A DNA stretch of 22,155 bases. It comes from a virus. The notes under the pieces were generated by a model that had not been told where the DNA came from, ran no database searches, and worked only from the letters and a program-made list of their open reading frames with translations. Location: IMG/VR virus record IMGVR_UViG_3300010396_000579, positions 1 through 22,155 of that record. One strand, 5' to 3'. How positions within the stretch are numbered: position 1 is the stretch's first letter; each line of letters begins with the position of its first letter. Made by a program: the position numbers and the translations under genes. Shown one piece after another: positions 5,028-22,155 of this stretch.

Positions 5028-7244
5028 ATGCGGAAAATCGTTTTCGATAACATGCCGACGTCCGGCTACTGGACTGTTTCGGACGGCGCCAACACGACGG
5101 CACTCCTGGATTCGAGCACCACAGCAGCGGAACTGGGAGCGGCAATGGACGCTGCTTCGCTCTCCGGTGGCCCGTACACGAGCGCCGTCACGGGTGATTT
5201 TTCTAGCGGCTTTCTGGTGGCCACGGCCCAGGCGCTGACAGTCGCGACATTGCCGGCCACCCCCCCGGGCATTGTGAGCGTTACGGACGTGTCCGACTAT
5301 GAGCCTGGTCCGATCACGATTTCGCTCAGTGCCGGCGCGGATGGAATCAACGACTCTGGAGACAGCACAGCCTTTTACCGTTGGTCGAGCGGCTTGGTAT
5401 CTGTGATCCCGTCCAGCGCAATCAGCGCCTTGGACCAAGGGGATCTGGTGAATGTACTTGTCTCGGGCGTCGGCGATATTTCGACCTGGAATTGCCACTC
5501 CGATGCCTCGATAAGTGGCACGATCGACTATGACGGCAATCTGGCGATTAACTTCCTCGACAGCGGAGGAACGGATCAGACGGCGGGGCTGGCGGGAATC
5601 GTCGCCAGCGGCGGCGAGATCGTGCTCACGCCGTTTATCGGTCCATGGAACACGGGATTCGTTACGCCGGTCGAGATGCTCCAGCAAGTCTCCGTCGCTC
5701 CGGAGGTAGGTGCCGGGACATTTACTCTCACCGACGACACGTCTCAGACGAGCGGTCCCATTCCCTACGATGGTATTACCGGGGATGTCAATACCGCAAT
5801 GATTGGTATGACGGAATATGCGTTCAATTGCACGGCGACGGACGGCGGCCCATGGACGATTGACTTTGGGGTGTCGGAGAGCGTGCCACTACTCACTGTC
5901 GATGCGACCGAATTGACCGTGTCGCCGCTACGATACGCGGGCCTTGCGGTCAGTGTGTCGGAAGTGCGGGCAGGCGGTCCCGGGGACAGCCCCGGCGCTC
6001 CAATCGTGATCACCGTAGCGGGCGGTCAGGATTCCGGCGATGGCGTGAACTACTATCGCTGGTCGGAGAGCCTCGTCTCCGTCAGTCCGACCGGCGCGGA
6101 GAGCGCTCTGGACCAACTAGATCCCGTCGAAGTCGCGGCTAACGGCATTAGTATTGGGGAATGGATCTCCGAGAGCAATGCCGGCCTGTCTGGTGTCGCG
6201 GACTACGACACGAATTTCGCCATCAATTTCATGGACGATGGCGGTTCCGATCACAGCGCAAGCGGCGATGACGCGCTAGGCGGTATTGCGGCCTCAGGCG
6301 GCGATTTCACTCTGACTCCATCTAGCGGCGCGTGGAATAGCGGGTACGCGGGCGATGCCTCCACCGAACAGCAGCAGGTGTCAATCCCCTCCGAGGTCAA
6401 TGGCGGCACGTTCGAGCTTACGCTCCCCGACTCCAGCGTGATCGCCTTCGACTGGGACATGAGCGCCGCGGACATGCAGTCCGCGATTCAGGCGCACAGC
6501 ACTTATATCTCTGCAACGGTCAGCGGCGGCAATCCGACTTGGACGATTGATTATGGCGTCGGTGAATCGCTGTCACTAGCCAGCGGAAACGGCGACTACC
6601 TGCTTGCGCCGGTCGATGCCACCGTTGAGCCTGTGTTATCCGGGACTGCCGCCGAAGGCGAAGCCGCGACGTGCCATCTGACCGTTGAGACGATTTCCGC
6701 CATAGGCGCCGAAGGCGAAGCCGCGCGCGGGTCTCTCATCATCGATGTGAACTGTCGCGGAGCCGGCGCCGAAGGTGAGGCCGCCCGGGGCGTGCTAACC
6801 GTGGCCGTCGATACTCTTTCCGCGACGACTGCGGAGGGGGAGGCGGCGAGTGCTGCCCTTACTGTGCAAAAGGTAATCGCTGGAACTGCGGCCGAGGGTG
6901 AGGCGGGACTGTGTCACCTGACAGCCGGCATTGAGCTACATGGCACGGCCAGTGATGGAGAGGCGTCCCGCGCGGTACTCACGGTCGACGTATTTGCCGG
7001 CGGAAAAGCTGCCGAGGGTGAAGCTGCGCGGGGCGTGCTAACGGTCGATGTGAAGTCAACGGGCACAGCGGCCGAAGGCGAATCAGCCCGCGGATCGCTC
7101 ACGGTCCATGTGTTTATGAATGCGGTTGCCGCCGAAGGAGAAGCCGGCCGAACTCCGCTGACAGTTCAGCGTCAGAGCATCGGCCAGCCGTGCTTCGTGG
7201 GCGATGTAATCCCCTACCCGGTAATGGCCATGGGTGTGCTATGA
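5028..7244 (+). CDS. Modular tail fibre/adhesin-like protein with tandem repeats
   Basis: Predicted 738-aa Gly/Ser/Ala/Asp-rich protein without a signal peptide, typical of a virion fibre. Two module types alternate. A small beta domain (GTFTL...WTIDFG) occurs at about 229-283 and 459-512, with a diverged copy at about 10-75. A larger domain (PITISL...FYRW...ALDQ...GGI.ASGG...WN.G) occurs at about 95-212 and 325-440. The C-terminal part (about 542-714) has nine units of about 20 residues with core AEGEAxxxxLTV, probably a shaft or beta repeat. The last ~25 residues form a distinct cap. It overlaps the next gene by ATGA. Function in host attachment is inferred from architecture and neighbours. 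Confidence 0.75.
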   Translation: MRKIVFDNMPTSGYWTVSDGANTTALLDSSTTAAELGAAMDAASLSGGPYTSAVTGDFSSGFLVATAQALTVATLPATPPGIVSVTDVSDYEPGPITISLSAGADGINDSGDSTAFYRWSSGLVSVIPSSAISALDQGDLVNVLVSGVGDISTWNCHSDASISGTIDYDGNLAINFLDSGGTDQTAGLAGIVASGGEIVLTPFIGPWNTGFVTPVEMLQQVSVAPEVGAGTFTLTDDTSQTSGPIPYDGITGDVNTAMIGMTEYAFNCTATDGGPWTIDFGVSESVPLLTVDATELTVSPLRYAGLAVSVSEVRAGGPGDSPGAPIVITVAGGQDSGDGVNYYRWSESLVSVSPTGAESALDQLDPVEVAANGISIGEWISESNAGLSGVADYDTNFAINFMDDGGSDHSASGDDALGGIAASGGDFTLTPSSGAWNSGYAGDASTEQQQVSIPSEVNGGTFELTLPDSSVIAFDWDMSAADMQSAIQAHSTYISATVSGGNPTWTIDYGVGESLSLASGNGDYLLAPVDATVEPVLSGTAAEGEAATCHLTVETISAIGAEGEAARGSLIIDVNCRGAGAEGEAARGVLTVAVDTLSATTAEGEAASAALTVQKVIAGTAAEGEAGLCHLTAGIELHGTASDGEASRAVLTVDVFAGGKAAEGEAARGVLTVDVKSTGTAAEGESARGSLTVHVFMNAVAAEGEAGRTPLTVQRQSIGQPCFVGDVIPYPVMAMGVL
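6651..7169 (+). repeat. Nine tandem ~60-bp (20-aa) coding repeats
   Basis: Units start at 6651, 6708, 6768, 6831, 6891, 6951, 7011, 7071 and 7131, giving a period of 57-63 bases (19-21 codons). The protein consensus is AEGEAARGxLTVDVxxxGTA. The codons for the core differ between units (for example GCCGAAGGCGAAGCC, GCGGAGGGGGAGGCG and GCCGAGGGTGAAGCT). The repeats are therefore old and conserved at the protein level rather than recently amplified. Confidence 0.9.
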
Positions 7245-18486: not shown

Positions 18487-19425
18487 ATGGCTGTCTCGCA
18501 AGTCTACGTCCTGCATGGCGTGCAAACGCCGAACGTGTTTTATGGCCAGATCACCCAGCACGCCAACAGCTCGGGCGTCGACCAGATGTTGCAGTATAGC
18601 GCGGGCTATCCCGTTCCGCTGTACCGCGGCGTCCGGGGCGCCAAGCCGATCGTCACGTTCACCACCACGCAACTGGCCACGCTGATCGGTGAATGCGGCA
18701 TCTATGGCGTGGATCAGTCGGGCGGCAATGTCGATCTGTATTACCGTCTGGCCACCGATCGGGGCTCGCGGGCCAGCCCCACGGCCACCGTGCATTACCG
18801 CTTCCGCATGCAGAACGCATTTATGTTCTGGCGCCGCATCCAGGCGAACAACCAGGGGGAAGCCACGGCCGAAGTCACGATCTATGGCCTGTTCGACGGC
18901 ACCAATCCGCCGGTCGTTCCGGCTGGTTCCACGGCGCTGGCGGGCACGCCCACGGCGGCCGAGTCGTTTGGCCTCGGTCCCATTGTGATCAACGGCAGTG
19001 TGTACAGCGGCTTCCAAAGCGCTTCGCTCGATCTGGGCGTCGAACTCATCGAACGCTCGGACCAGTCCGACCCCTGGATGAGTTTTTGCGGCATCAAACA
19101 GCTCAACCCGATCGTCACGGCCAGCGGCCTGAACCCCGCGGCCTGGACCACGCTGGGCGTGCTGGGCTCGAACCTGACCAGCTTCATTCTGTACCTGCGC
19201 AAGCGGAACCTCGACTGCGCTGGGGACGCGGCCTATGTCGCGGATGGCACCAGTCAGCACATCGCGGTTTCCTCGAGCAAGGGGATGATCATGCCGCAGC
19301 AATCGTCTGGCGGAGGCAACACGGAATTGATCACCGGCATTTGGGCGGGCCTGGTCAGCCCCGATGGCACCAGCGACCCCTTGAGCGTTTCGGCGGCGGC
19401 GACCATCGCCAGCCCGGCGGCATGA
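18487..19425 (+). CDS. Major tail tube protein
   Basis: Predicted 312-aa protein with AAGGA at about 18474-18478 upstream of the ATG. It is beta-rich and Gly/Ser/Thr-rich, with SQVYVLHGVQTPNVFYGQI at the N-terminus, an internal IGECGIYGV segment and EATAEVTIYGLFDG. The C-terminus is Ala/Ser-rich, which suits a tube protein with an Ig-like or flexible tail. The position between tail completion and tape measure matches lambda V. The length is somewhat larger than gpV (246 aa). The next 31-aa frame starts in an ATGA overlap with its stop. Confidence 0.75.
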   Translation: MAVSQVYVLHGVQTPNVFYGQITQHANSSGVDQMLQYSAGYPVPLYRGVRGAKPIVTFTTTQLATLIGECGIYGVDQSGGNVDLYYRLATDRGSRASPTATVHYRFRMQNAFMFWRRIQANNQGEATAEVTIYGLFDGTNPPVVPAGSTALAGTPTAAESFGLGPIVINGSVYSGFQSASLDLGVELIERSDQSDPWMSFCGIKQLNPIVTASGLNPAAWTTLGVLGSNLTSFILYLRKRNLDCAGDAAYVADGTSQHIAVSSSKGMIMPQQSSGGGNTELITGIWAGLVSPDGTSDPLSVSAAATIASPAA

Positions 19426-19520: not shown

Positions 19521-19814
19521 ATGGCGGGCGATGAACAAGCCACGACGGGCGAACAGGAAAAACCCAAGGCCACCGGCAGCGGCCCGGCGGTGCGGACGCT
19601 GTTTGAGCAGAGGCGCGATTACCTGTCGCAATCACTGTCCATCACCAAGGCCGATGCCACCGCGCGGCTCAACAGCCTGGTGGGCAACTACGCGGCCAAG
19701 AAGGGCATGCACGACGAAGGCCCGGCGCGTGATTTCGTGCTGGATCTCGACCCCGAACGGCTGTTGGACCTGCTGGCCCACGGCGCGCACGAGGCGGCTC
19801 GGCTGCTGAAGTAA
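19521..19814 (+). CDS. Small helical protein in tail operon
   Basis: Predicted 97-aa protein with AAGGTGA at 19511-19517 just upstream of ATG. The first ~25 residues are polar and disordered (GEQEKPKATGSG). The rest is helical and charged (FEQRRDYLSQSLSITKADATARLN, then ERLLDLLAHGAHEAARLLK). It sits between the tail tube and a frameshift gene, where lambda-like phages have tail-assembly chaperones. It might be a partner of the chaperone, but no family is recognised. Confidence 0.6.
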   Translation: MAGDEQATTGEQEKPKATGSGPAVRTLFEQRRDYLSQSLSITKADATARLNSLVGNYAAKKGMHDEGPARDFVLDLDPERLLDLLAHGAHEAARLLK

Positions 19815-19849: not shown

Positions 19850-20646
19850 TGGCTTGCTTGCAGTATTTCCTCCCCGGCGTGATGGCTTCCGACCTGGCAT
19901 CGGGCGGCCAACTCAATCGGCCACTGCTGGAAGAGCGCGGCTTGGGCAGCATCTTCGCGGACATCACCAGGCCGGCAGACTGCCCGCATTTCGAGCTGGC
20001 CGGATCGGGCGGCCCGGGCGGCAAGCCGGGCGTGATCATTTACGCACTGCCGGGCCACGGCAATCCGCCGCGCCGCACGGGCTACTTTGCCGACGACAAG
20101 AATTTCGAATGGTCTCCGGTTGGCGATGGCTCGAAGCTCTGGATTTGCATCGATCGAGCGTTCCCGCCGGCGCCGGTGGATCTCCCGCGACGGCAGATGA
20201 TCGAAGGGCATGCGGTCAAGCTCGATGACGGAAACGAGTGGATCGTCCCCGTGATTCGCCGTTGGGGCGGCGGCACGCGGTTGCCGCGCAGCTTTTCCTA
20301 CGACTCGGCCGGCAAGCTCCTGCAAGCCGTCAAGCCAGGATACCAGGCGTATTGGGAGCGATCTGCGGCCGTGTCTGATTTCGTCTATGCCAATGGCAGC
20401 GTTGAGTTGCAGTGGGCCGTTGATACCTGCCTCGACCTGTTGGGCCTGAATTATCGCCTCGGCCGCAACGAGCAAACCGTCCTGGGGCTCGTGGGTTCCG
20501 AGAACTGGCGCGACATCTTGCGAGCCGCGGTGGATTATCCGACCGCACTACAGGTGCTTGAGGAGGAACGACTCAAAAAAAAAGCGGAGCCTGTGAATTC
20601 TCCGCCCGCTATGTCGAGTGCCGAACCTGGCTCGACGGCCGGCTGA
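19849..20646 (+). CDS. Tail assembly chaperone-like protein, zero-frame product
   Basis: Predicted 265-aa protein located where lambda encodes G/GT, just before the tape measure gene. The start has no Shine-Dalgarno sequence and is preceded by a heptamer array. The N-terminal ~150 residues are beta-rich (GVIIYALPGHGNPPRRTG, then WICIDRAFPPAPVDLP and EWIVPVIRRWGGG). The C-terminal part is helical (VELQWAVDTCLDLLGLNY, then NWRDILRAAVDYPTALQV), ending in a Lys-rich stretch at the slippery site. The zero frame adds 20 residues after AAA-AAA-AAA and stops. A -1 shift at that site would give a 285-aa form. The chaperone role is inferred from location and frameshift. The fold is not recognised and is longer than lambda gpG (140 aa). 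Confidence 0.65.
   Translation: MACLQYFLPGVMASDLASGGQLNRPLLEERGLGSIFADITRPADCPHFELAGSGGPGGKPGVIIYALPGHGNPPRRTGYFADDKNFEWSPVGDGSKLWICIDRAFPPAPVDLPRRQMIEGHAVKLDDGNEWIVPVIRRWGGGTRLPRSFSYDSAGKLLQAVKPGYQAYWERSAAVSDFVYANGSVELQWAVDTCLDLLGLNYRLGRNEQTVLGLVGSENWRDILRAAVDYPTALQVLEEERLKKKAEPVNSPPAMSSAEPGSTAG
20561..20605 (+). promoter_or_regulatory. Programmed -1 frameshift (or slippage) signal
   Basis: Three elements in order: AGGAGG at 20561-20566, a Shine-Dalgarno-like stimulator; nine A residues at 20575-20583 with zero-frame codons AAA-AAA-AAA; and a perfect 6-bp hairpin GCGGAG (20584-20589)/CTCCGC (20600-20605) with a 10-base loop. The spacing from AGGAGG to the last A-AAA-AAA heptamer is 10 bases, as in dnaX-type sites. 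The hairpin starts directly at the A run, which is closer than usual and could also favour transcriptional slippage. Confidence 0.8.
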
Positions 20647-20705
20647 CCAACCAGTACCCGTCCCGCGGCGAACTATTCCTGGCCGCTCATCCTGATATGC
20701 AGTAA
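20583..20705 (+). CDS. -1-frame extension of the chaperone-like gene
   Basis: After slippage the frame reads AGC GGA GCC and stays open for 40 codons to TAA at 20703-20705. The extension has a coding-like sequence (CEFSARYVECRTWLDGRL, then YPSRGELFLAAHPDMQ). The only in-frame ATG is near its end and no other usable start was seen, so it should be reached only by frameshift. It ends two bases before the tape measure ATG. The composite protein would be about 285 aa, in the role of lambda gpGT. Confidence 0.75.
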   Translation, partial: SGACEFSARYVECRTWLDGRLTNQYPSRGELFLAAHPDMQ

Positions 20706-20707
20706 CG

Positions 20708-22155
20708 ATGTCCGATCCTCGCGTCAAAACCATCTTCGAAGCTGACGACAAAGGCACGCAGGAGGCGATTGCCAATCTGCAGAAGGGGATGGAACGGCTG
20801 CGCGAAACCAACCAGCGCATGGCCAAGGAGGCCAGCGAGCACCACCATCACGAGGAAGCCTTCCACGCCAAGGCGCTGGAGTTCGGCAAGGAACAAGTTG
20901 ATTCGATCAAGGAAAGCATCGTCGAATACTTCACGCTCAAATCCGCGATCGAACTGACCACCGAGGCCCGCAAGAAACTGACGGAGGTTACCAAAGAGGC
21001 CGCTTCCGAGCGGCTGTCTACCTCGACGTCCCTGGTGGGCATGCTGCGCGATTCTGGCCAGATCCAGAATATCAGCATGTTCGAAAAGGCGTTCGAGCAA
21101 ATGCCGGGGCGCGACGAAGATAAGTTGCGGCGCATGCAGGAATCTCTCCGCACGCCGTTTCTGTCGCCCAAGGAATACGTCGAGAACGCCCGCGCCGCAT
21201 CGCATCTTGGCGCCTATACCGACACGACCGGATCAGGGGAACTGCTTGGGCAGATCGGCTACATGGCGCCAGGTCTTTCGCCTGAGCAGCGGGGACGATT
21301 GACGGTCGAGGCGTTGAAGCAAACCGGCAGCGCCCACGGCGAGCTATTGGAAGGGATTCGCGATGAACAGTTTCGCCGATTGGTGCGCGGTGGGGTGTTC
21401 GGCCAGGGGCAAGAGGGCGTCATGGGGGCGATGGGATTCGCTTCGTCGCTCCTGAAGGCAGGCGGCGGAACGAGGTCGCTCGCGGCATTGGAAGCCGTCT
21501 TGACCGAAAAGTTTGAAGCTCGCCCGGAACGCATGTACCCTTCCGACCGCCCGATTGACCCGAAGGATATTACTCGCTCGCATCTTGCCGGCCTGAATGA
21601 TCGCGAACGGTTTCAGTATCTTTTGACCCATCAAGGAGAGCTTGGAAACATTTTCTCCGAGAATCAAATCCCGGCCATGCGCGAAGCGATGGCGAATTGG
21701 CGCACCAGTGCGGCCGCATATTCAGCCGCGGCGGCCGCTCCAATTCCCCGCTCCCCAGCAAGCCCCGCGCTGGAGCGCGTCGAACGCAACAAGGCAATTG
21801 CCGCGGCTCACTCTCAATCCATGGCCTCTTACGCCGAAGAAGGAGAATTCAACGAGGAATTTTTCGGCGAGAAGGGTAGGCTCGAAGCCGTCTGGAATGC
21901 GAATTACGGCAAGAATCTCCTCAGCAATCGGGCCCGGATGGCGACGGGGACGCTCAATCGGGCAGTTGGAACGCTCTCCGACGAATCCGAGGCCGACGTG
22001 AACATGTCGACCCTGAAGGCCTTGGCTAATCGCGAAGGTGATCCCAATGGCCCGCTGCATCAGCTGTTTAGCGAAGCACTGCGCGTGCTCAGGGAAATCC
22101 GCGATCGGACGCCCACTCAAGAGGAAATGCTGCAGCGCTCGCGCGAACAAGCCAA
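20708..22155 (+). CDS. Tape measure protein, N-terminal part (runs off window)
   Basis: Open reading frame from ATG 20708 without a stop to the end of the window, at least 482 aa, so the gene is partial at its 3' end. It begins MSDPRVKTIFEADDKGTQEA and continues as mostly helical, charged sequence with coiled-coil character (LQKGMERLRETNQRMAKE), a His cluster HHHH, Ala-rich stretches and a Gly-rich segment. Location directly after a frameshift chaperone gene fits lambda H. No Shine-Dalgarno sequence precedes it, so initiation probably depends on ribosomes ending at 20705. It would set tail length and be built into the tail with the chaperone's help. Confidence 0.8.
   Translation, partial: MSDPRVKTIFEADDKGTQEAIANLQKGMERLRETNQRMAKEASEHHHHEEAFHAKALEFGKEQVDSIKESIVEYFTLKSAIELTTEARKKLTEVTKEAASERLSTSTSLVGMLRDSGQIQNISMFEKAFEQMPGRDEDKLRRMQESLRTPFLSPKEYVENARAASHLGAYTDTTGSGELLGQIGYMAPGLSPEQRGRLTVEALKQTGSAHGELLEGIRDEQFRRLVRGGVFGQGQEGVMGAMGFASSLLKAGGGTRSLAALEAVLTEKFEARPERMYPSDRPIDPKDITRSHLAGLNDRERFQYLLTHQGELGNIFSENQIPAMREAMANWRTSAAAYSAAAAAPIPRSPASPALERVERNKAIAAAHSQSMASYAEEGEFNEEFFGEKGRLEAVWNANYGKNLLSNRARMATGTLNRAVGTLSDESEADVNMSTLKALANREGDPNGPLHQLFSEALRVLREIRDRTPTQEEMLQRSREQA

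Follow-up and report, generated by a model that had tools for sequence, protein, structure and literature searches.

One gene of a virus of planctomycete-type bacteria appears to give rise to a tail-building protein in two versions. Most messages would yield a chaperone-like protein of 265 aa whose end lies shortly past a run of nine A's (A9). On a fraction of the messages, RNA polymerase would slip on the nine A's with the net addition of one A, and ordinary translation of the altered message would proceed in the -1 frame, appending a conserved tail of some 40 aa that stops where the tape measure gene begins. As the analogy to lambda gpG/gpGT suggests, coating of the tape measure protein would probably be the task of the short form and recruitment of the tube protein that of the long form. 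Comparison of homologues indicates that this is a real, conserved programmed recoding event, a variant of the known tail-chaperone frameshift. RNA polymerase slippage is probably its main route and is favored over ribosomal slippage alone, a ribosomal contribution being likely; that it is the polymerase rather than the ribosome that slips is something we infer, as are both protein roles.

Gene order and homologues of the chaperone-like protein

The window, i.e., the whole stretch of DNA analyzed, is a metagenome contig of 22,155 bases (IMG/VR virus record IMGVR_UViG_3300010396_000579, positions 1 to 22,155). Its modules follow a siphovirus-like order: terminase (GpA type), portal, protease, decoration protein, major capsid (matching PHROG 1005), and small connector genes, followed by the tail genes, which comprise a presumed tube gene, a 97-aa open reading frame (ORF), the 265-aa ORF, and a long ORF (Table 1). 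No PHROG or Pfam match was found for the presumed tube gene. The gene at the tape measure position matches tape measure PHROGs in five relatives (L027, L032, L133, L135, and L137), and the chaperone-like gene lies between the tube and tape measure genes in the window, L132, L133, and L135 to L137, with the tube gene assigned by position and mutual similarity only. An ORF of 97 to 129 aa with no family match recurs between the presumed tube and chaperone genes in the window (19521-19814), L132, L135, L136, and L137. Elsewhere in the window, a 738-aa ORF (5028-7244) contains imperfect protein repeats of the type AEGEAARGxLTV; tandem DNA repeats were not seen there.

TABLE 1 Tail-region features of the window
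Feature	Position	Strand	Basis or remark
Presumed tail tube gene	18487..19425	+	By position and a homologue in L133
Zero-frame tail-chaperone-like gene, 265 aa	19849..20646 (stop TGA 20644-20646)	+	ORF; 41 distinct homologues
AGGAGG, possible local stimulator	20561..20566	+	10 nt before the in-phase heptamer; not a family feature
A9 slip site (three zero-frame AAA codons)	20575..20583	+	In-phase A_AAA_AAA at 20577-20583
Extension in the -1 frame, 40 aa past the run, with stop	20583..20705 (stop TAA 20703-20705)	+	Peptide conserved; third codon positions most variable
6-bp hairpin immediately downstream of the run, probably incidental	20584..20605	+	GCGGAG (20584-20589) pairs with CTCCGC (20600-20605)
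Presumed tape measure gene	20708..22155 (runs off the window end)	+	Own PHROG matches weak

The family of the 265-aa protein had no sequence match in Pfam, PHROGs, NCBIfam, or PDB and was absent from 50,697 GenBank phage records. Used alone as the query, the window protein gave no match in IMG/VR or among GenBank phages, and tblastn of three family members (L003, L079, and L136) against phage records was likewise negative. An AlphaFold2 model of the protein was confident (pLDDT 88, pTM 0.83), with a beta-rich N-terminal part and a helical C-terminal part (163-246), and a Foldseek search of the model against PDB and BFVD returned no meaningful neighbor (best E values of 0.076 and 0.11). These results bear out the view, expressed in a preliminary description of this DNA, that the zero-frame protein is not an obvious gpG relative. 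We take it to be a member of a so far undescribed chaperone-like family whose gpG/gpGT-type placement is by analogy and not by homology, no meaningful sequence or fold match to known tail chaperones having been found. A chaperone role is suggested by its position, by the tape measure matches downstream in the five relatives, and by the recoding itself.

As the window protein alone matched nothing, the first relatives were contigs fetched with a capsid alignment and then with a portal alignment. Among the first of these, L003 and L004 held a homologue of 25% identity; its run, at the corresponding site, was A10, and its -1 frame closed shortly ahead of the following gene. A profile search was then run against all loci and 392 planctomycete-phylum genomes (12 positive), and a viral scan was added with an alignment truncated upstream of the run to keep the -1 frame from biasing it. 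A scan of the genome contigs with the capsid alignment gave no relative. The final set comprised 41 distinct homologues (at most 90% identical) from IMG/VR contigs and planctomycete genomes, including six genome-derived homologues located in 4- to 8-Mb contigs and surrounded by phage gene order. One contig with a related portal (L017) was binned as a Microbacteriaceae metagenome-assembled genome (MAG), possibly by a binning error.

Conservation of the A run and of the -1 peptide

The A9 run, AGGAGG, the GCGGAG/CTCCGC hairpin, the -1 frame, and the ATG at 20708 given in the preliminary description were all confirmed at their positions. The run is the sole one of at least seven A's or T's in the window. 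The -1 frame is open from 20562 to 20702 and stops two bases before the ATG of the presumed tape measure gene, and its only start codon is an ATG in the penultimate codon, which agrees with the earlier statement that it is open for 40 codons and has no useful start of its own. The -1 tail was modeled as two short helices (pLDDT 80). A DENR_N Pfam match of the -1 peptide (E value of 0.0013, 18.7 bits) was under the 25.3-bit cutoff and was taken as chance.

Comparison of the run and the -1 frame across homologues, proposed in the preliminary description as a check, came out in favor of programmed -1 recoding in the tail-chaperone slot of a family with no known relatives. Among the 41 distinct homologues, the run was A9 in 33, A10 in 4, and A8 in 1, with no run in 3, and the -1 frame was open past every one of the 38 runs, mostly for 32 to 63 codons. 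The peptide R[WY]L..Y..W..G..P.YRPT..DLW.L was recognizable in nearly all of the 38; the alignment held family-wide around W..G..P.YRPT..DL and was weak in the most diverged members, e.g., L046, L103, and L113. The suggestion that the -1 frame looked coding-like was likewise upheld, as its peptide is conserved and its third codon positions vary the most (entropies of 1.33, 1.32, and 1.71 bits; P values of 7e-7 and 2e-4 for homologues that are not statistically independent). Departures from the common arrangement were seen in L107 (75% G+C), in which CGG GGA AAA, a canonical ribosomal heptamer G_GGA_AAA, replaces the run and is followed by a similar peptide; in L040, with a GTGA stop-start overlap ahead of the -1 peptide and no run; and in L115, the most diverged homologue, which is without the extension and whose stop overlaps the ATG of the next gene.

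A chance A run was rejected on the count of such runs in 430 kb of homologous loci, whose coding strand held 39 runs of at least nine A's, 37 of them at the slip site. It is this conservation that makes the A9 run significant, since the run of the window taken alone is only mildly unusual, as an A9 also arose in 7 of 100 dinucleotide shuffles. In one relative, nine A's in a row with no obvious recoding role were observed at the start of a gene before the portal (L008:5031-5039; MAKKKTM...).

The -1 frame could in principle be an independent small gene that is not fused but is started by itself or by coupling, and the stop-start overlap of L040 is of that kind. We consider this very improbable, as in 22 of the 38 homologues with a run, the window included, the -1 frame offers no start codon ahead of the motif, as several homologues have a -1 stop overlapping the run, and as the run itself would be left unexplained. 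Because the peptide is conserved, starts are missing in many homologues, and none of the 41 has an in-frame fusion, the comparison supports selection on the -1 peptide and its fusion to the zero-frame product at the run.

Homopolymers are error-prone and the window is a metagenome contig, and hence a sequencing error had to be weighed, together with phase variation by replication slippage and a decaying gene. A true A10 (or A7) in the window would indeed fuse the two frames, as the preliminary description had warned, but with its other example, A8, the extension would come to lie in the +1 frame. Explanations of this kind have hardly any probability left. They are refuted in substance by the recurrence of the same arrangement in 38 distinct homologues; run-bearing homologues are also found in the 4- to 8-Mb chromosome contigs, which rules out a metagenome artefact. 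The lack of fusions and the presence of the same A10 site in two metagenomes (L003 and L004) speak against them as well.

Polymerase and ribosomal slippage as possible routes

The AGGAGG, the A run, and the hairpin had been read in the preliminary description as a dnaX-type cassette, a reading that was not sustained. Instead of lying at a set distance, the hairpin follows the run with no spacer at all, and neither it nor the Shine-Dalgarno (SD)-like sequence is kept among relatives. The 60 nt of the window that hold the hairpin fold with a z score of -1.5, and 13 of 200 shuffles fold as well. Across homologues, no common hairpin was seen downstream of the run, and folding was close to the control both for the 60 nt after it (mean z of -0.44 ± 0.17 versus -0.13 ± 0.10) and for the first 30 nt (z of +0.17 versus -0.03). 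SD-like 5-mers upstream of the run were found at 10 of the 38 sites, with 4.8 expected, a weak excess that Glu-rich codons (GAG GAG GAA in the window) could explain. Given the near-control folding and this weak excess, we regard the AGGAGG/hairpin cassette as local and not as a family trait. Rfam gave no match near the slip site.

A different picture was obtained for the run itself. Its length was kept independently of codon phase: 37 of the 38 runs consisted of 9 or 10 A's, in all three phases (9, 17, and 12 sites in phases 1, 2, and 3, respectively). Codon phase differed even within a cluster joined at 50% identity, where the run length stayed at nine, as though substitutions at the edges had built the run anew. 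Runs of nine A's or T's are known to make bacterial polymerases slip, and the RNA-DNA hybrid of these enzymes measures 9 to 10 bp (PMC5009743); An with n above 7 is a listed transcriptional slip motif (PMC3711429). Polymerase slippage is favored because the run has 9 to 10 A's in every phase, although 7 nt (or six A's and a G) would suffice for the ribosome, because the phase changes within the 50%-identity cluster at a constant length, and because a sister chaperone family, described below, uses ordinary 7-nt ribosomal heptamers. Transcriptional slippage, which the preliminary description had named last, thus fits the comparative data best, with the constant -1 direction as a point that does not conform to it. 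By the GeneTack rule of thumb, a constant -1 direction is read as ribosomal, while the direction varies among orthologues if the slippage is transcriptional (PMC3711429); here, it was -1 in 38 of 38 homologues. In the papers searched, which lay largely outside the subscription literature, transcriptional slippage was not described for any phage tail chaperone.

The direction of the shift is also in line with ribosomal -1 frameshifting alone on the in-phase A_AAA_AAA, as in lambda G-T and Escherichia coli dnaX, with the long run only raising the efficiency. Such a heptamer is present inside every A9 and is usable by ribosomes, which counts against the polymerase reading, as do the G_GGA_AAA of L107, the A8 of L103, and the weak SD-like excess. 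The A_AAA_AAN heptamers of the sister family and, in the window, the AGGAGG 10 nt upstream point the same way, and in a reporter, frameshifting rose with A-run length (10% for 7 A's, 40% for 9, and 63% for 11), the mechanism not being separated (PMC3711429). Frameshifting by ribosomes alone leaves unexplained, however, that none of the 38 runs has 6 or 7 A's in any codon phase, and no stimulator is conserved; we therefore hold it to be a possible but rather unlikely explanation.

The sister family occupies the same slot in ten related phages (L008, L018, L043, L058, L070, L080, L088, L090, L093, and L097). It is an unrelated chaperone-like protein with a Cys-rich (CxxC) -1 extension of about 100 to 110 aa (e.g., L008:12362-13008), and its slip sites are A_AAA_AAC, A_AAA_AAG, or A_AAA_AAA in runs of A6 to A9, mostly of 6 or 7. 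Run length differed between the two families (Mann-Whitney P value of 3e-6, Fisher P value of 2e-5, with three near-identical sites counted once and homologues that are not independent). The hosts of the two families may differ. A8 runs were observed in both families within one MAG (G002; L018 at 9769 and L103 at 2190), A8 being otherwise rare in the family of the window; perhaps this reflects a host-specific threshold.

Returning to slippage by the polymerase, we find it fairly probable, if a little less so than the choice of main route itself, that in one family of planctomycete phages the polymerase sets the dose of the long form by slipping on a run whose nine A's match the RNA-DNA hybrid, that the sister family relies on the ribosome, and that two recoding routes have been exchanged for one job.

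Relation to known recoding systems

The protein family described here lies outside the reference family libraries and has a recoding site conserved in length and not in codon phase. If the slippage is transcriptional, RNA polymerase would set the ratio of the two chaperone forms, a ratio tied to tail assembly in lambda. The presence of A7-heptamer and A9-run families in one gene slot amounts to a natural experiment on the choice of recoding route. The -1 domain of all these genes is missed by annotation pipelines.

Tail-chaperone recoding is a textbook phage frameshift and is described as ribosomal. Like lambda gpG/gpGT and the HK97-type systems, the family of the window has its gene just upstream of the tape measure gene, a -1 extension between both genes, and two expected products. 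It differs from them in the lack of a sequence or fold match, in a zero-frame protein of about 230 to 290 aa, in a short extension (mostly 32 to 63 aa), in A9 to A10 runs in place of a 7-nt heptamer, and in having no conserved stimulator. With the E. coli dnaX cassette, it shares an A-rich slip site and, in the window, the AGGAGG 10 nt before the in-phase heptamer, but here no spacer separates the hairpin from the run, both stimulators lack conservation, and the shifted product is the longer one. The Cys-rich-extension chaperones of related phages have the same slot and a -1 extension at an A run, whereas the proteins are unrelated and their A6 to A9 runs form ordinary A_AAA_AAN heptamers. Programmed transcriptional slippage at A or T runs is known from the A9 of Thermus dnaX, Shigella spa13 and mxiE, and the A11 of Citrobacter tssM1 (PMC5009743, PMC3711429, PMC4256274). 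As in those systems, a long A or T run lies inside a coding frame, and a product in another frame would arise when the run length is misread; here, by contrast, the run of presumed slippage belongs to a phage tail module and is kept across a diverse family.
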